This document shows positions 14,589-42,735 of a stretch of DNA of 64,000 nt, piece by piece. The DNA comes from a virus, in IMG/VR virus record IMGVR_UViG_3300030380_006185, positions 62,001 to 126,000 of that record. One strand, written 5' to 3'. Position numbers and translations under genes: made by a program. The first letter of the stretch is position 1, and every line of letters begins with the position of its first letter. The notes beneath the pieces were generated by a model. It was given only the letters and a program-made list of their open reading frames with translations, searched no databases and was not told the origin of the DNA.

Positions 14589-14649
14589 CTAAGGTATTAG
14601 CCACTAATAACACTCCAAATAATACTATAAATACCATCGCTATACTCAT
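14578..14649 (-). CDS. 23-residue membrane peptide
   Basis: A tiny frame coupled to both neighbours (ATGA upstream, ATGATGAGTAA downstream). The product is almost entirely a hydrophobic segment (AMVFIVLFGVLLVA) with an acidic end (LDDE). Accepted because of the coupling; function unknown. Confidence 0.5.
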   Translation of the reverse strand: MSIAMVFIVLFGVLLVANTLDDE

Positions 14650-14732
14650 TCCTTTTTCCAATTATCTAGTATTACTGCTGCTATTAATAATAGAATACTA
14701 AAAGTTACTACTGCATATTCTATTGGGCTCAT
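14646..14732 (-). CDS. 28-residue membrane peptide
   Basis: ATG at 14730-14732, ATGA overlap with the next gene. Its N-terminus (SPIEYAVVTFSILLL) resembles that of the 31-residue peptide at 15508 (NGIEYVVVVFGIMLL), so the two are probably duplicates flanking the CHU_C gene. Confidence 0.55.
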   Translation of the reverse strand: MSPIEYAVVTFSILLLIAAVILDNWKKE

Positions 14733-14737
14733 ATTTA

Positions 14738-15511
14738 TTATTTTATTAAATTTATATGTCCGTGTACTTGTAATGTTTCTCCTAGAACATTAGTGTATAT
14801 TACTCTATAAAAATAAACTCCAATTGGAGAATTATTTCCATCCCAACCTTCATTTATGTTGTTATTTTCAAATACTATTTCATTCCATCTATTGTATATT
14901 TTGAAATCAAATTTTTCAATCCCATTCCCTATAGGTTGTAATATATCATTAGACCCATCTCCATTGGGTGTAAAAGAATTTGGAATATATAACCCAATTT
15001 CACATTCAGGTCCGACTTCAATGTAACCATCATATAATAAATAGTGATATGAATTGCAAACACTATTTATGTTATCTCCCCTAGATGTTACAATAATTGA
15101 TAAATCTAATTCTTCACAACTATCTTTAACTTGAATTTCAAAGCAAAATGAACGAATACAATCCCCAAAAAAATCCCAATCCCCTATATCATCTGAGGGG
15201 TTATTATTACTAGGGCCAAATTCAAAATGCCACCCATTATTCACCCACACCCAATCTCCTTCTGTTGTAATACTACAGTTTTGGGGTGGGTTAAGTGGAG
15301 TTAAATTTTCCCATCCTTCTCCTAATTCTACTTCTAGACTTTCTAATTTACAAGTACTACCTCCTGTCCATCCTTCCATTTGGTAACAAGCTAGAACTTT
15401 CTCACCTTTAGGGTAACTAGTTTTATCAGGGTCTAGGTATGATGTTTCTATCCCTATTGGGGATTGATTATAACTAAAAAGAGGTAATAATAAAAAAATT
15501 AATTTATTCAT
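14738..15511 (-). CDS. Secreted protein with C-terminal CHU_C / gliding-motility sorting domain
   Basis: 257 residues. Residues 1-16 form a signal peptide (NKLIFLLLPLFSYNQS). The C-terminal ~85 residues carry the hallmarks of the CHU_C domain (PF13585 / TIGR04131), which directs type B cargo to the type IX secretion system: YIPNSFTPNGDGSND near 173, FKIYNRWNEIVFEN near 205, WDG, then GVYFYRVIYTNVLG and a short end. The region between is Cys- and Trp-rich (about eight Cys), typical of an extracellular protein. T9SS is restricted to Bacteroidota, so the phage appears to export this protein through the host system. It is flanked by two similar membrane micro-peptides. Role (adhesin, receptor blocker, matrix protein) unknown. 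Confidence 0.88.
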   Translation of the reverse strand: MNKLIFLLLPLFSYNQSPIGIETSYLDPDKTSYPKGEKVLACYQMEGWTGGSTCKLESLEVELGEGWENLTPLNPPQNCSITTEGDWVWVNNGWHFEFGPSNNNPSDDIGDWDFFGDCIRSFCFEIQVKDSCEELDLSIIVTSRGDNINSVCNSYHYLLYDGYIEVGPECEIGLYIPNSFTPNGDGSNDILQPIGNGIEKFDFKIYNRWNEIVFENNNINEGWDGNNSPIGVYFYRVIYTNVLGETLQVHGHINLIK

Positions 15512-15603
15512 CTTCTATTTTTCTTCCACCATCTATTTGCTATAAAACCTATAACTAGTAACATTATACCAAATACAACTACTACATATTCTATTCCATT
15601 CAT
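15508..15603 (-). CDS. 31-residue membrane peptide
   Basis: ATG at 15601-15603; ATGA overlap with the CHU_C gene downstream. One hydrophobic segment (VVVVFGIMLLVIGFIA) and a basic tail (NRWWKKNRR). Similar to the peptide at 14646. Confidence 0.6.
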   Translation of the reverse strand: MNGIEYVVVVFGIMLLVIGFIANRWWKKNRR

Positions 15604-17105: not shown

Positions 17106-17413
17106 TTTACTACTTTTTCTTTCACTTTTTTAATGATTTTTTCATCATAAAAACTTCTTAATTCTAAAGTTTTAAATGAAAAAAACATCCTTAGTGGACT
17201 TGGGCCTTTTAAATATAAAAAATTATAAGCTGACCACTCTGCTTTTTCCCAATAATTATCTTTAATAATTTCTAATAAAAGATCACCATTTTCATCAACA
17301 TGTTTCCAATCATAAATATGACATACTTTAGTAATACTTTTTAAAAATTTTCTAAATTTAATTGCTCTGATTAAAAATGATAATCCTATAAGTGATGTTC
17401 CTATTATATACAT
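17102..17413 (-). CDS. Membrane-anchored hypothetical protein
   Basis: 103 residues with an N-terminal hydrophobic segment (YIIGTSLIGLSFLI) and a basic C-terminus; ATGA coupling to the nucleotidyltransferase-like gene downstream. Not recognised. The partnership may be functional. Confidence 0.6.
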   Translation of the reverse strand: MYIIGTSLIGLSFLIRAIKFRKFLKSITKVCHIYDWKHVDENGDLLLEIIKDNYWEKAEWSAYNFLYLKGPSPLRMFFSFKTLELRSFYDEKIIKKVKEKVVK

Positions 17414-17428
17414 AACTTTTATTTTAAG

Positions 17429-17463
17429 GTAATATAAGAAAAAAAAGATAAAATCCCCATTCC
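17429..17463 (-). promoter_or_regulatory. Phage promoter-like motif (rightmost family member)
   Basis: GGAATG, 17 bases, TTCTTATATTACC on the minus strand, upstream of the ATG at 17413. It is the last clear member of the family; none was seen beyond the tRNA cluster. Confidence 0.6.
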
Positions 17464-17488
17464 TTTTTAAATTAATTTAATTAAAAAA

Positions 17489-17565
17489 TGGTGGAGGTAG
17501 AGGGAGTCGAACCCACGACCTCCTGCGTGCAAGGCAGGCGCTCTAGCCAGCTGAGCTATACCCCC
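17489..17565 (-). tRNA. tRNA-Ala (TGC)
   Basis: Complete cloverleaf with acceptor GGGGGTA/TACCTCC, anticodon loop TTGCACG and a T-loop GGTTCGACTCC. CCA is encoded. The 5' end overlaps the last codons of the gene at 17556 by about 10 bases. Confidence 0.93.
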
Positions 17566-17939
17566 ATTTTTCTATAGGAAATGGTAAATGAGAGACCAAA
17601 TACAATTCTTGCTAAGGCAACCCATAAAATGCAAATCCAAAAACTATTAATAGGAAGTGCTAAAAATAGTACACCCATAAATATAAACAAGTTTCTTAAT
17701 AGTTTGAAAAAATGCCAAGCATCTGTTAAACCTACTAGCAATGTAGTTGAAAAGAGAAATTTAGGGCCTTGTTTTGGGTCTCCATTTTTATATTTATTTT
17801 TCCATGAAATCTCTGGATTCCAAAATAATTGTGGGTTTTTAGAGTAAAAAACAGAATTATAAAAGTGAAATTGGAGGGTATCCATTACACCTTCACTTAC
17901 TCCTGATAAAATAAAGCAAACTAATCCAATATATTCCAC
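17556..17939 (-). CDS. Membrane protein
   Basis: 127 residues with three to four hydrophobic segments and a soluble loop rich in aromatic residues (NPEISWKNKYKNGDP). The MDTLQFHF and TDAWHFFK segments resemble a conserved Bacteroidota membrane protein of unknown function, so it may have come from the host. The stop codon lies inside the tRNA-Ala sequence. Confidence 0.65.
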   Translation of the reverse strand: MEYIGLVCFILSGVSEGVMDTLQFHFYNSVFYSKNPQLFWNPEISWKNKYKNGDPKQGPKFLFSTTLLVGLTDAWHFFKLLRNLFIFMGVLFLALPINSFWICILWVALARIVFGLSFTISYRKMGV

Positions 17940-18133
17940 TAGTTATCTTTTCTATATTGGAGATACCAAACTAAAGAAGCTATAAACCCACCATAAGCAG
18001 CAATTCCAGTAGCTATTTTTAAATAGGTTGTGTCTAAGTATCCATTAGCCCACCAAAATGGGTATAATATACACATTACTAACATAAATAAAATTTGTAG
18101 TATGTGAATTGAGTGTTTTTTAAATCGTTTCAT
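17939..18133 (-). CDS. Two-pass membrane protein
   Basis: 64 residues, two hydrophobic segments and charged ends. ATG overlaps the next gene by one base (TAATG). Function unknown. Confidence 0.6.
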   Translation of the reverse strand: MKRFKKHSIHILQILFMLVMCILYPFWWANGYLDTTYLKIATGIAAYGGFIASLVWYLQYRKDN

Positions 18134-18145
18134 AGTTATAAATAT

Positions 18146-18286
18146 TTAAACTTTTTTTATACTTCGGAGAGCTGATTTAAGGTGGGTAATAGTATCACTT
18201 AATGGTTTACTGTTTTCATCATTATACTTCTTTTCTAATTTAGAAATAAGTGTTTCTAATGAGGTTATTTCTACTTTTATTTTCAT
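18146..18286 (-). CDS. Hypothetical 46-residue helical protein
   Basis: ATG at 18284-18286 after an A-rich leader; basic, coiled-coil-like (SLETLISKLEKKYNDE). Sits between tRNA genes and the membrane genes. Not recognised. Confidence 0.55.
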   Translation of the reverse strand: MKIKVEITSLETLISKLEKKYNDENSKPLSDTITHLKSALRSIKKV

Positions 18287-18307
18287 AATTTTTATTTTTA
18301 TTAATTG

Positions 18308-18380
18308 TTGTCCCACAAGGGCTCGAACCTCGACTCTTCTGGACCAAAACCAGACGTGTTGCCAATTACACCATAGGACA
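18308..18380 (-). tRNA. tRNA-Gln (TTG)
   Basis: Acceptor TGTCCTA/TGGGACA, anticodon stem TCTGG/CCAGA with loop TTTTGGT, and GGTTCGAGCC T-loop. CCA is not encoded. Confidence 0.93.
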
Positions 18381-18384
18381 AAAG

Positions 18385-18458
18385 CGGACTGGACGGGACT
18401 CGAACCCGCGACCCCCTGCGTGACAGGCAGGTATTCTAACCAACTGAACTACCAGTCC
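18385..18458 (-). tRNA. tRNA-Asp (GTC)
   Basis: Acceptor GGACTGG/CCAGTCC, anticodon loop CTGTCAC, T-arm GCGGGTTCGAGTCCCGT. Discriminator G, as for tRNA-Asp. CCA is not encoded. Confidence 0.93.
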
Positions 18459-18462
18459 TTTG

Positions 18463-18534
18463 TAGCCCATAGGAGAATCGAACTCCTGTTTCTAGGATGA
18501 AAACCTAGCGTCCTAACCACTAGACGAATGGGCC
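18463..18534 (-). tRNA. tRNA-Glu (TTC)
   Basis: Acceptor GGCCCAT/ATGGGCT, anticodon stem CTAGG/CCTAG with loop TTTTCAT, T-arm CAGGAGTTCGATTCTCCTA. CCA is not encoded. Confidence 0.93.
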
Positions 18535-18538
18535 ATGT

Positions 18539-18623
18539 CCCCTAATAAAATCCCAAAAATATCTTTAGGTTTATTAGGGGGAAAGAAACATCTGAGAGTA
18601 AAAGGAGGGAGAACAGATGTTTC
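18539..18623 (-). ncRNA. Two long hairpins between tRNA-Leu and tRNA-Glu
   Basis: An 11-bp perfect inverted repeat (CCCCTAATAAA/TTTATTAGGGG, 18539-18580) and a 10-bp one (GAAACATCTG/CAGATGTTTC, 18585-18623) fill the gap. They may be tRNA-processing structures, a small RNA, or the remains of a tRNA-like gene. No reading frame explains them. Confidence 0.45.
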
Positions 18624-18632
18624 AAATGTTTG

Positions 18633-18716
18633 TACTCGAGGAGGGATTTGAACCCTCACGGGCTAATGCCCACAGGATTTTAAGTCCGGCGTGTCTACCA
18701 ATTCCACCACTCGAGC
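18633..18716 (-). tRNA. tRNA-Leu (TAA)
   Basis: A long-variable-arm tRNA: acceptor GCTCGAG/CTCGAGT, D-arm GGTGGAATTGGTAGACAC, anticodon loop CTTAAAA, T-arm GAGGGTTCAAATCCCTC. First tRNA of the cluster in transcription order. Confidence 0.93.
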
Positions 18717-18726
18717 TAAAATCCTC

Positions 18727-18828
18727 TTATCTCTTTTTCTTTTTTTTCTTTTTTAATTTAAATGCTTCAATTGTTGTTAACCAATCTTTTAATGCTTCAA
18801 TTCTTTGTCTTGGTGGGTTTTTACTCAT
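18727..18828 (-). CDS. 33-residue protein with poly-Lys tail
   Basis: ATG at 18826-18828, 9 bases after the upstream stop. The C-terminus is LKKKKKKKR; the rest is a short amphipathic helix. Possibly nucleic-acid binding; accepted on spacing. Confidence 0.5.
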   Translation of the reverse strand: MSKNPPRQRIEALKDWLTTIEAFKLKKKKKKKR

Positions 18829-18837
18829 TTGTTATAA

Positions 18838-19266
18838 CTATTTATTTTTTAATTCTTTAATATGTTTACATTCTCTAGTTTTGGATCTCCAATATCCAGG
18901 ACAATTACATTTGTAACTATCCATTATTTTTCTTACTGTATAAACTGTATCACTAGAACTTGATTTAAATTTAAATAAATTTGGTTCTACTTTTGGTTCT
19001 GGTTTGGTAGGTTTAATCCAATTAATATCATCTAGTGTAGTATTTGGATCTACTTCTTTCCAATCAGGTACAAGGTATTTTTTATCTCCTACATTAAGTA
19101 AAGAAGGTGAAATATATTCATGTATGTAGTCATATTTAAAACGCTTTACACCTACAAACCTTCCTAATCCTTTTGGATAAAATTTAAATTGAGAACTTTC
19201 TCTATATACTAATCTAGTTCTTAAATTTCCGTACTTGTTTAAATTTGAAAACTCAAATAATGGCAT
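18838..19266 (-). CDS. SWIM zinc-finger protein
   Basis: 142 residues. The C-terminus carries a SWIM motif (CNCPGYWRSKTRECKHI, CxC then CxH), which binds zinc and usually mediates nucleic-acid or protein contacts. The N-terminal 100 residues are beta-rich and unrecognised. It is the last protein gene before the tRNA cluster. Confidence 0.75.
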   Translation of the reverse strand: MPLFEFSNLNKYGNLRTRLVYRESSQFKFYPKGLGRFVGVKRFKYDYIHEYISPSLLNVGDKKYLVPDWKEVDPNTTLDDINWIKPTKPEPKVEPNLFKFKSSSSDTVYTVRKIMDSYKCNCPGYWRSKTRECKHIKELKNK

Positions 19267-20846: not shown

Positions 20847-21326
20847 TTATTTTTTAATTGGGAGTCTTAAACCTACATTAAATATACTTCTAGTACCTAA
20901 AGAAATATCTCCCCCCGTACCTATTTCACCACAAAATACAAAGTGTAAACCAGTGTTAGGTCTAATATTTAATTGAGCGTAGCCCATCAATGGATAAGGT
21001 CTAATACCTAATATAATAGCTATTTGTTCCTTTTTACCATAATAAGAACCAACACCCACTTTTCCAGTTATAATATAAGGATAAGATAAACCTAGTTGTA
21101 TATCTATCAAACTATAGTCCCCCATAGGTATATTAGTACCTATCGATAATGAACCCATAAATTTATCATTATTTTCATAGGTTACACTCATATCTACAAT
21201 GTCTATAACTTCATCTTCATAGTTTACTGTAGTACTTACACCAGCATTAGCTTCTATATAAAAGGATTTGTTTTGTGAGTATAATAATCCAGGTATTAAT
21301 AAAATTAGTAGTAATATCTTTTTCAT
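20847..21326 (-). CDS. Secreted outer-membrane beta-barrel-like protein
   Basis: 159 residues. Signal peptide at 1-18 (KKILLLILLIPGLLYSQ), whose YSQ end is typical of Flavobacteria. The mature part has alternating strands with aromatic ends (FYIEANAGVS, YSLIDIQLGLSYPYII, GLHFVFCGEIG) and a C-terminal GLRLPIKK, consistent with a small outer-membrane barrel. A phage-encoded surface protein could block superinfection; this is inference. Confidence 0.6.
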   Translation of the reverse strand: MKKILLLILLIPGLLYSQNKSFYIEANAGVSTTVNYEDEVIDIVDMSVTYENNDKFMGSLSIGTNIPMGDYSLIDIQLGLSYPYIITGKVGVGSYYGKKEQIAIILGIRPYPLMGYAQLNIRPNTGLHFVFCGEIGTGGDISLGTRSIFNVGLRLPIKK

Positions 21327-22632: not shown

Positions 22633-22971
22633 TTATTTCCAAAATACCTGTATAAATATTAAAGAAAGAGATAGTAAAAGAGAAGTTAAAGTTTTTAATG
22701 TTATACCTTCTTTAAAAAATATTCCTACAAATAAAGCATAAACTAGTATTCCTACACCAAACCCTATAAAACGAGCTGGCCATAATGTACCGTCAAAGTG
22801 TTGTACTGTATATTTTGTTCCATAGATATATAAGTAAGAAATGGGTATACCAAATAATGCAAGTATAAAGGTATTTTTTTCAAACCAATTCCAAATGAAT
22901 TGACCATTTAATTGAAACCATGTTACTAAATGTGCTCCTAGAAAAAATAATATTCCAAATATTAATCGCAT
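22633..22971 (-). CDS. Multi-pass membrane protein
   Basis: 112 residues with four hydrophobic segments and an FDGTLWPARFIGFGVGI motif between the second and third. It resembles a widespread small phage membrane protein of unknown function. Confidence 0.65.
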   Translation of the reverse strand: MRLIFGILFFLGAHLVTWFQLNGQFIWNWFEKNTFILALFGIPISYLYIYGTKYTVQHFDGTLWPARFIGFGVGILVYALFVGIFFKEGITLKTLTSLLLSLSLIFIQVFWK

Positions 22972-24206
22972 ATAATTAAGTTGTTTTCGTATGTCGTTAA
23001 ATCGTTGATTTGAATTTTTAAATTACCTAATTCAAATTCACCTATCTCTCCACTATCCTGAATTATTTCAGACAATTGTTGTATTATTTGCATATCTTGT
23101 TGAGTAAATTTATTGCCATTTATTTTAACAGTAATATTATCTTTAATAACATGTTTATTTGGATCAAATCCTTTAACTCTTTCATCTATATTAAATGAAC
23201 TATATTTTTGTTCTTCTTCACTGTATAAAACAAATTCTTCTAAATCAACGTAAAGATAATCACACCATGGTTCTAATGCTTGTATTAATTGTATATAGCA
23301 ATTTTCAACTACAATACCTACTTCATATTTAGGTGGTACAATTGGTTTCATTAAAGCATCATGTTTACAAAAATGCCCCCATTTACGAATAAATTCTCTA
23401 GTTGATTTTTGGTTTTGAGCTAACCATTCATCTGTTTCTCTATTTTTCATAAACACTTGACCATCAGGGTTTCGTTTTGCTCCATCGGCAAATCTACTCC
23501 CTCTACAAGTCATATGATAAACAAATCCTTCCCATGTTTGAATAAACTTAATTCCATTTAAATGAAAACGATTGAATATATCTGTATCTTCTTTTGATTG
23601 TGGAGCAAATATAGGGTCATGACCTCCTATTTCTTGAAAATCTTTTTTCCAAAATGCCCAAGGTGCAAATATACCTTCTGTAGTTTCTGGCATTGAAGAG
23701 GTATTAGCATTCAGGGGTTGGCCTATTTTTTCATGCATAAACTTAACCCTGTCTAATAGTTTTCTTTCATCAAACTCTTCAGGTTCAATACCACAATCTA
23801 ATAATATTTTTTCAGGGCCAGGTGGATGTAATGGTGGTTCGATTCTAGTAAGTGATACGATTGTTTTTTCCTTTAAATGTTTTTCAATCGCATCTAACGC
23901 ACCTGGACATAAGTACATATCAGCATGGTAAATCATACAAATATCATGTGTTGCTACTTCATTAACTAAACGATCGTATAGTATTGTATGACCTAAACGA
24001 GTTGGTCCTTCATTTCTAATTGCCTTAAATAATGGGTCTTTTTCCATCATTTCTTTACACCATTCCCAAGTATTATCCTTATCACTAAAGTCATCTGCTA
24101 CACAAATTTCTACTTCATGGTCACCTTGGTTTTTACGAATTGAATCATATGACCATTTAAGGTATTTAAGATTATTTCTACTTGGTTGGATAATTGATAT
24201 TTTCAT
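22962..24206 (-). CDS. Family 2-type glycosyltransferase
   Basis: 414 residues. N-terminal GT-A domain: ISIIQPSRNNLKYLKWSYDSI (2-24), ICVADDFSDKDNTW with the nucleotide-binding Asp, and MIYHADMYLCPGAL as the DxD-like metal site. EDTDIFNRF near 215 holds the likely catalytic acidic pair. The C-terminal 130 residues are unrecognised. It begins a sugar block reaching to 30.8 kb. Confidence 0.8.
   Translation of the reverse strand: MKISIIQPSRNNLKYLKWSYDSIRKNQGDHEVEICVADDFSDKDNTWEWCKEMMEKDPLFKAIRNEGPTRLGHTILYDRLVNEVATHDICMIYHADMYLCPGALDAIEKHLKEKTIVSLTRIEPPLHPPGPEKILLDCGIEPEEFDERKLLDRVKFMHEKIGQPLNANTSSMPETTEGIFAPWAFWKKDFQEIGGHDPIFAPQSKEDTDIFNRFHLNGIKFIQTWEGFVYHMTCRGSRFADGAKRNPDGQVFMKNRETDEWLAQNQKSTREFIRKWGHFCKHDALMKPIVPPKYEVGIVVENCYIQLIQALEPWCDYLYVDLEEFVLYSEEEQKYSSFNIDERVKGFDPNKHVIKDNITVKINGNKFTQQDMQIIQQLSEIIQDSGEIGEFELGNLKIQINDLTTYENNLIICD

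Positions 24207-40800: not shown

Positions 40801-42735
<1,935 letters not shown>

Follow-up and report, generated by a model that had tools for sequence, protein, structure and literature searches.

Proteins of phage origin that carry sorting signals of the bacterial type IX secretion system (T9SS) have been described in two settings. The Cryophage encodes T9SS cargo with a type A C-terminal domain (CTD), an occurrence that its authors termed unique (Bellas et al. 2020, PMC7468147), and T9SS-tagged proteins are encoded upstream of the head genes in crAss-like cluster 2 contigs (PMC6949934); in the part of the latter report drawn upon here, the tags are associated with BACON domains and their type, A or B, is left unstated. 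In Flavobacterium johnsoniae, SprB and other cellular type B substrates have a Sec signal and a C-terminal type B CTD (PMC9143113, PMC12618676). Here, a gene for a protein of this latter design is described in a virus: it lies on the minus strand at positions 14738–15511 of a 64,000-nucleotide stretch (the window; bases 62001–126000 of IMG/VR record IMGVR_UViG_3300030380_006185) and encodes a 257-residue protein, referred to below as the cargo protein.

Like the Cryophage, the present phage combines a T9SS C-terminal sorting signal with variable accessory cargo, for which the Cryophage authors suggest superinfection exclusion or competition (PMC7468147). The Cryophage type A CTD (PorV pathway) is carried by enzymes and a PA14 protein, whereas the present tag is of type B (PorP/SprF pathway) and is attached to a small beta-sandwich. 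The crAss-like contigs share the presence of a T9SS tag in a phage genome and belong to a different phage group. SprB is a cellular adhesin of 669 kDa with a linked SprF; in contrast, the cargo protein is viral and 27 kDa in size, and no phage shuttle was found for it. It resembles in this respect three orphan F. johnsoniae type B substrates that have no linked shuttle gene (PMC12618676). The grappling-hook protein GhpA of Aureispira (9flp) matches in sequence in the CHU_C domain only (E = 3.6e-08) and is a 5898-residue cellular protein of unrelated function. The same sorting domain, with a partly similar model structure, occurs in three UniProt entries from uncultured phages (A0A6J5L8Z9, A0A6J5NJX2 and A0A7S9STS8, "Gliding motility-associated, C-terminal domain"), on which no paper was found and whose names are automatic only. 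A literature search that covered few subscription journals returned no account of phage-encoded type B cargo. The original prediction regarded a phage gene of this kind as unusual, a description that holds only with qualification given the published phage T9SS cargo (PMC7468147, PMC6949934), the automatically named UniProt entries and the 94 IMG/VR stretches described below. Type A Cryophage cargo, T9SS-tagged crAss-like proteins and type B phage entries under automatic names were already known; new are the breadth of type B domains, the cargo-free forms and the lack of a PorP/SprF shuttle in 43 records, of which the latter two are the most interesting.

The cargo protein ends in a complete type B sorting domain

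The gene and its parts, in window coordinates, are as follows.
14738..15511, minus strand: T9SS type B cargo gene, 257 aa, ATG start (PF13585, TIGR04131 and dN/dS, the ratio of nonsynonymous to synonymous substitution rates)
15467..15511, minus strand: putative signal peptide, approximately residues 1–15 (MNKLIFLLLPLFSYN), cleavage point approximate (inspection)
15002..15460, minus strand: predicted N-terminal nine-strand beta-sandwich domain, residues 18–170, 8 Cys (AF2 model and homologues)
14741..14986, minus strand: CHU_C/type B T9SS sorting domain, residues 176–257 (PF13585, TIGR04131)

A single Pfam family, CHU_C (PF13585), is found in the 257-residue protein, at residues 176–242 (E = 4.8e-14; 52.7 bits against a curated cut-off of 27 bits). 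The NCBIfam profile for the T9SS type B sorting domain, TIGR04131, aligns with residues 176–256 of 257 over profile positions 3–84 of 85 (E = 9.7e-11; 41.7 bits, cut-off 35 bits), and the type A profile TIGR04183 remains below its cut-off (13.1 versus 23 bits). The sorting domain is real, complete and located exactly at the C terminus, as a sorting signal requires. The CHU_C profile has this one match in the entire 156,273-bp record and none in 14 control genomes. At the other end of the protein, the sequence (MNKLIFLLLPLFSYNQS) was judged by eye to be a Bacteroidota-style signal peptide. This N terminus is hydrophobic and by inspection typical of a signal peptide both here and in a sister phage contig (L002); the AlphaFold (AF2) confidence score (pLDDT) is below 50 over the region. 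Approximately 241 residues follow it, and all eight Cys positions of the protein are matched in the sister phage. No match was obtained to any of the 38,880 PHROGs families at E values up to 1.

The gene belongs to the phage and is under purifying selection

On the 156,273-bp record, 232 of the 244 called open reading frames (ORFs) are on the minus strand, and a T4-type terminase is present at genome positions 17360–18943. Among phage records, its large subunit (TerL) is best matched by that of Flavobacterium phage immuto (57% identity), a 160-kb phage of Flavobacterium sp. LMO8. The second match is PP395634 (Microcystis phage Mel-JY01; 52.7% identity), whose recorded host is a cyanobacterium, yet whose terminase lies near that of a Bacteroidota-type phage; this host assignment may merit a check. 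The cargo gene lies amid small accessory ORFs 76.7 kb into the genome, distant from the terminase region. An 84% identical orthologue is found in L002 (57 kb), within a stretch that is syntenic almost gene for gene, and this sister locus was the only match in a whole-protein scan of viral sequences. The cargo gene is thus phage-encoded: it is inside a phage genome, on its main strand and syntenic in a related phage. Host contamination was rejected on the same grounds.

Comparison with the L002 orthologue gave a dN/dS of 0.142 for the whole gene (257 codons), 0.106 for the N-terminal domain and 0.140 for the sorting domain; the fastest-evolving part is the putative signal peptide (0.486). Both folded domains are under purifying selection. 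The GC content of the gene (31.3%) is close to the genome value (29.8%), and the gene is established in the phage. A decayed gene is disfavoured by the overall dN/dS of ~0.14; because both domains are constrained, the gene is not debris.

Several elements of the original prediction were borne out by these data. The assignment to CHU_C/type B stands above the cut-offs of both profiles, the gene is that of a phage by the size and strand bias of the record, its terminase and the syntenic sister, and "Cys-rich" is a fair description of eight conserved Cys residues. The proposed Bacteroidota host agrees with an N-terminal domain whose cellular homologues were found only in metagenome-assembled genomes (MAGs) of Flavobacteriales and other Bacteroidota, and with a nearest isolate that infects Flavobacterium.

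The N-terminal domain is a predicted beta-sandwich shared with other phage proteins

Whole-protein fold matches had low template-modelling (TM) scores to the query (~0.2–0.46), and the N-terminal domain was therefore modelled separately. Alone, it is predicted with confidence to be a nine-strand beta-sandwich (pLDDT 85.7; predicted TM score, pTM, 0.84). Among solved structures, the model comes closest to beta-sandwiches of pilins and adhesins (TM ~0.5), a likeness in topology that does not establish common descent. Searches with Pfam, NCBIfam and PHROGs and the fold matches gave no indication of an enzyme or toxin in the cargo protein.

With a two-sequence profile, the same domain was found at E values of 1e-18 to 1e-5 in other phage CHU_C proteins (on L048, L064, L068, L037, L013, L024, L025, L014, L102, L028 and L045), and a weak match lies in a 1670-residue protein of the 642-kb phage LR756502. 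The phage proteins that share the domain are longer and have extra domains in between. Among 84,980 species genomes, six matches were obtained, all in Bacteroidota MAGs and including Flavobacteriales proteins; the five bacterial homologues whose C terminus falls inside the retrieved DNA all end in a CHU_C-like domain of their own. Identity to the closest bacterial and other phage homologues is only ~30–35%.

Type B domains recur with a patchy distribution among phages

The original prediction proposed a search for CHU_C in other Bacteroidota phages. The wider pattern emerged only when 2.9 million IMG/VR contigs were scanned for the codons of the motif TPNGDGxND, which yielded 94 stretches with type B examples, each with an ORF that bears the motif close to the C terminus of a CHU_C-like tail. 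The PF13585 cut-off was passed by all 25 IMG/VR records that were profile-checked and by both huge phages. A Terminase_6N gene is present in 16 of the 50 longest contigs, and the phage status of most contigs rests on the IMG/VR call. In INPHARED (50,697 records), the present protein and three other CHU_C queries matched only LR756502, LR745206 and MT839536 (4.2 kb), none of them cultured.

Single-linkage grouping of the cargo of 70 complete proteins together with the present one gave 16 groups, with 33, 19 (including the present protein), 5 and 2 members and twelve singletons; these counts are rough, as chaining is possible. Recognised cargo domains in related phage proteins include Ig-like, PKD and SprB repeats. 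One protein (L061, 1698–4394) resembles a gliding adhesin and matches SprB repeats (PF13573), PKD and CHU_C; another (L011, 5422–10434, from LR756502) looks similar by eye. At the opposite extreme, 7 of the 70 complete proteins have fewer than 40 residues between signal peptide and sorting motif. Three of 107 residues (L022, 6237–6560; L077, 4352–4675; L084, 431–754) consist of a signal peptide joined directly to the CHU_C domain, and the seven mini proteins together span at least two lineages as defined by TerL (60% and 31% identity to the present phage).

Phages whose TerL is 51–74% identical to the present one bear CHU_C genes with unrelated cargo. In three relatives (G019, G076 and G044), the CHU_C gene is less than ~10 kb from the same DUF932 gene as in the present phage. 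The trait is patchy: among the 32 further contigs related by TerL (806 kb), one has a CHU_C gene.

No PorP/SprF shuttle is found in the phage records

Type B substrates of F. johnsoniae depend on PorP/SprF shuttles, whose genes often lie beside those of the substrates; the linkage is usual, not obligatory, and three orphan substrates use one common shuttle (PMC12618676). Endogenous shuttles are scarce and limiting, and they appear to be used stoichiometrically, without being recycled (PMC12618676). Type B CTDs carry five conserved, required motifs, A–E (PMC12618676), whose presence in the cargo protein is supported only indirectly, by the full-length profile match. A published co-folding screen assigned interface scores above 0.8 to true pairs of CTD and shuttle (PMC12618676). 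Type B proteins appear to be anchored via the PorP/SprF barrels (PMC9143113). The PorP/SprF profile PF11751 had no match in 43 CHU_C phage records (the 156-kb record and 42 others), many of which are fragments; as a positive control, it matched in 4 of 4 Bacteroidota genomes, with 4–12 copies each. Phage cargo, if secreted, must borrow a host shuttle.

Possible roles of the cargo protein

The reading that we favour, at a probability of roughly 0.5, is that of an orphan type B cargo which rides on a host shuttle, is shown on the surface of the infected cell and remodels that surface, with superinfection exclusion as the likeliest outcome. The cargo protein would be a phage-encoded type B substrate of T9SS that is exported by Sec during infection and whose C-terminal CHU_C domain then passes the SprA/Sov outer-membrane pore of the host. 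One of the host's own PorP/SprF barrels would collect it, the phage supplying none, and a short two-domain beta-sandwich protein would end on the surface of the infected cell. Secretion, route and anchoring we infer from the biology of F. johnsoniae. The likeliest benefit would be that host adhesins used by other phages are covered or displaced, with less superinfection as a result; surface remodelling is favoured as the benefit because adsorption of phages, and resistance to them, have been linked to gliding and T9SS proteins and to the adhesins SprB and RemA (PMC13288928). The supporting observations are the complete CTD at the extreme C terminus, the purifying selection, the synteny with L002, the shared N-terminal domain, the recurrence with varied cargo and the lack of a phage shuttle. 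Should this reading be true, phages that export tagged proteins without bringing a shuttle would manipulate the pathway by which the host delivers receptors. The type B tag would also supply a sequence rule by which exported proteins could be recognised in Bacteroidota phages, whose genes mostly have no known function.

Three points weigh against surface display and remodelling. Type B CTDs show specificity for their shuttle, and in the cases tested sequence outside the conserved domain can also be necessary (PMC12618676); a foreign orphan CTD might for these reasons stay unsecreted. Flavobacterium phage immuto, the nearest cultured relative, is without a CHU_C gene, and the trait is therefore dispensable. 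Finally, remodelling directed against other phages is offered, by analogy, strictly as a hypothesis.

The activity could also reside in the sorting domain itself. In that case, CHU_C would keep the T9SS pore or the scarce PorP/SprF shuttles occupied, SprB-type adhesins would not be delivered and later phages would be left without a receptor, the cargo being of minor importance. The seven mini proteins, some with no cargo at all, in at least two TerL lineages, the lack of a phage shuttle and the limiting, apparently non-recycled endogenous shuttles (PMC12618676) are consistent with such a decoy, which we consider possible but doubtful for the present protein: its N-terminal domain, needless in a pure decoy, is at least as constrained as the CTD (0.106 versus 0.140). 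Because of this strong constraint, display would matter here too, beyond shuttle titration. As a tentative generalisation, large Bacteroidota phages may wield CHU_C orphans, reduced in the most extreme cases to a signal peptide plus sorting domain, to occupy the scarce PorP/SprF shuttles and strip the cell of receptors such as gliding adhesins, and so achieve superinfection exclusion via the secretion system. An adhesin, released or surface-bound, that works on neighbouring cells or once lysis has occurred, gluing infected cells, particles or debris or helping spread in aggregates, would suit the SprB, PKD and Ig-like repeats of related phage proteins and the pilin-like folds of the N-terminal domain; as just ~241 residues follow the signal peptide and neither a repeat array nor a recognised binding domain is present, this role appears unlikely.

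Ig-like domains are common on virions, and in the relatives G021 and G029 the CHU_C gene is immediately upstream of TerL, as might be expected if CHU_C were merely a structural Ig-like unit of a virion component. This proposal is improbable in view of the putative signal peptide, the distance of the gene from the terminase region and a sorting domain that is complete and exactly C-terminal. The patchy distribution would suit a passenger host gene without function for the phage, which is made very improbable by a dN/dS of ~0.14 over 257 codons, a GC content close to that of the genome (31% versus 30%) and the low identity to even the closest homologues in bacteria and other phages. Some Bacteroidota export toxins by T9SS, and a toxin aimed at competing bacteria was among the roles first suggested for the protein; with no toxin or enzyme domain and fold matches to structural adhesins, it is similarly far-fetched. 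Of the three roles first suggested, that of a surface or adhesin-like protein fits the fold.

Neighbouring genes

Immediately upstream of the cargo gene is a small ORF.
15508..15603, minus strand: single-helix membrane microprotein ORF, 31 aa (MNGIEYVVVVFGIMLLVIGFIANRWWKKNRR), with a counterpart at the matching place in L002 (3747–3842)

Its stop codon overlaps the cargo ATG (ATGA) in both phages, and translation of the two may be coupled on account of this overlap. A promoter and terminator scan performed no better than shuffles. A second tiny single-helix membrane ORF (14646–14732, minus strand, 28 aa) flanks the cargo gene on its other side; the two share M..IEY.VV.F...LL, and only the ORF at 15508–15603 has an L002 counterpart.

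A 159-residue protein with a signal peptide, encoded at 20847–21326 (minus strand), resembles a beta-barrel in sequence (MKKILLLILLIPGLLYSQNKSFYIEANAGV...); it has no counterpart in the otherwise syntenic L002 and is a second candidate envelope protein of the phage. As a phage-made shuttle, it was set aside: its length falls short of that needed for a 14-strand PorP-like barrel, it matches no Pfam family and it is absent from L002. By sequence inspection, a GroEL-like chaperonin gene lies at 40801–42444 (minus strand), followed by a GroES-like ORF. Finally, a glycosyltransferase family 2 gene (22962–24206, minus strand) and further glycosyltransferase- and methyltransferase-like ORFs up to ~30800 suggest sugar modification by the phage.
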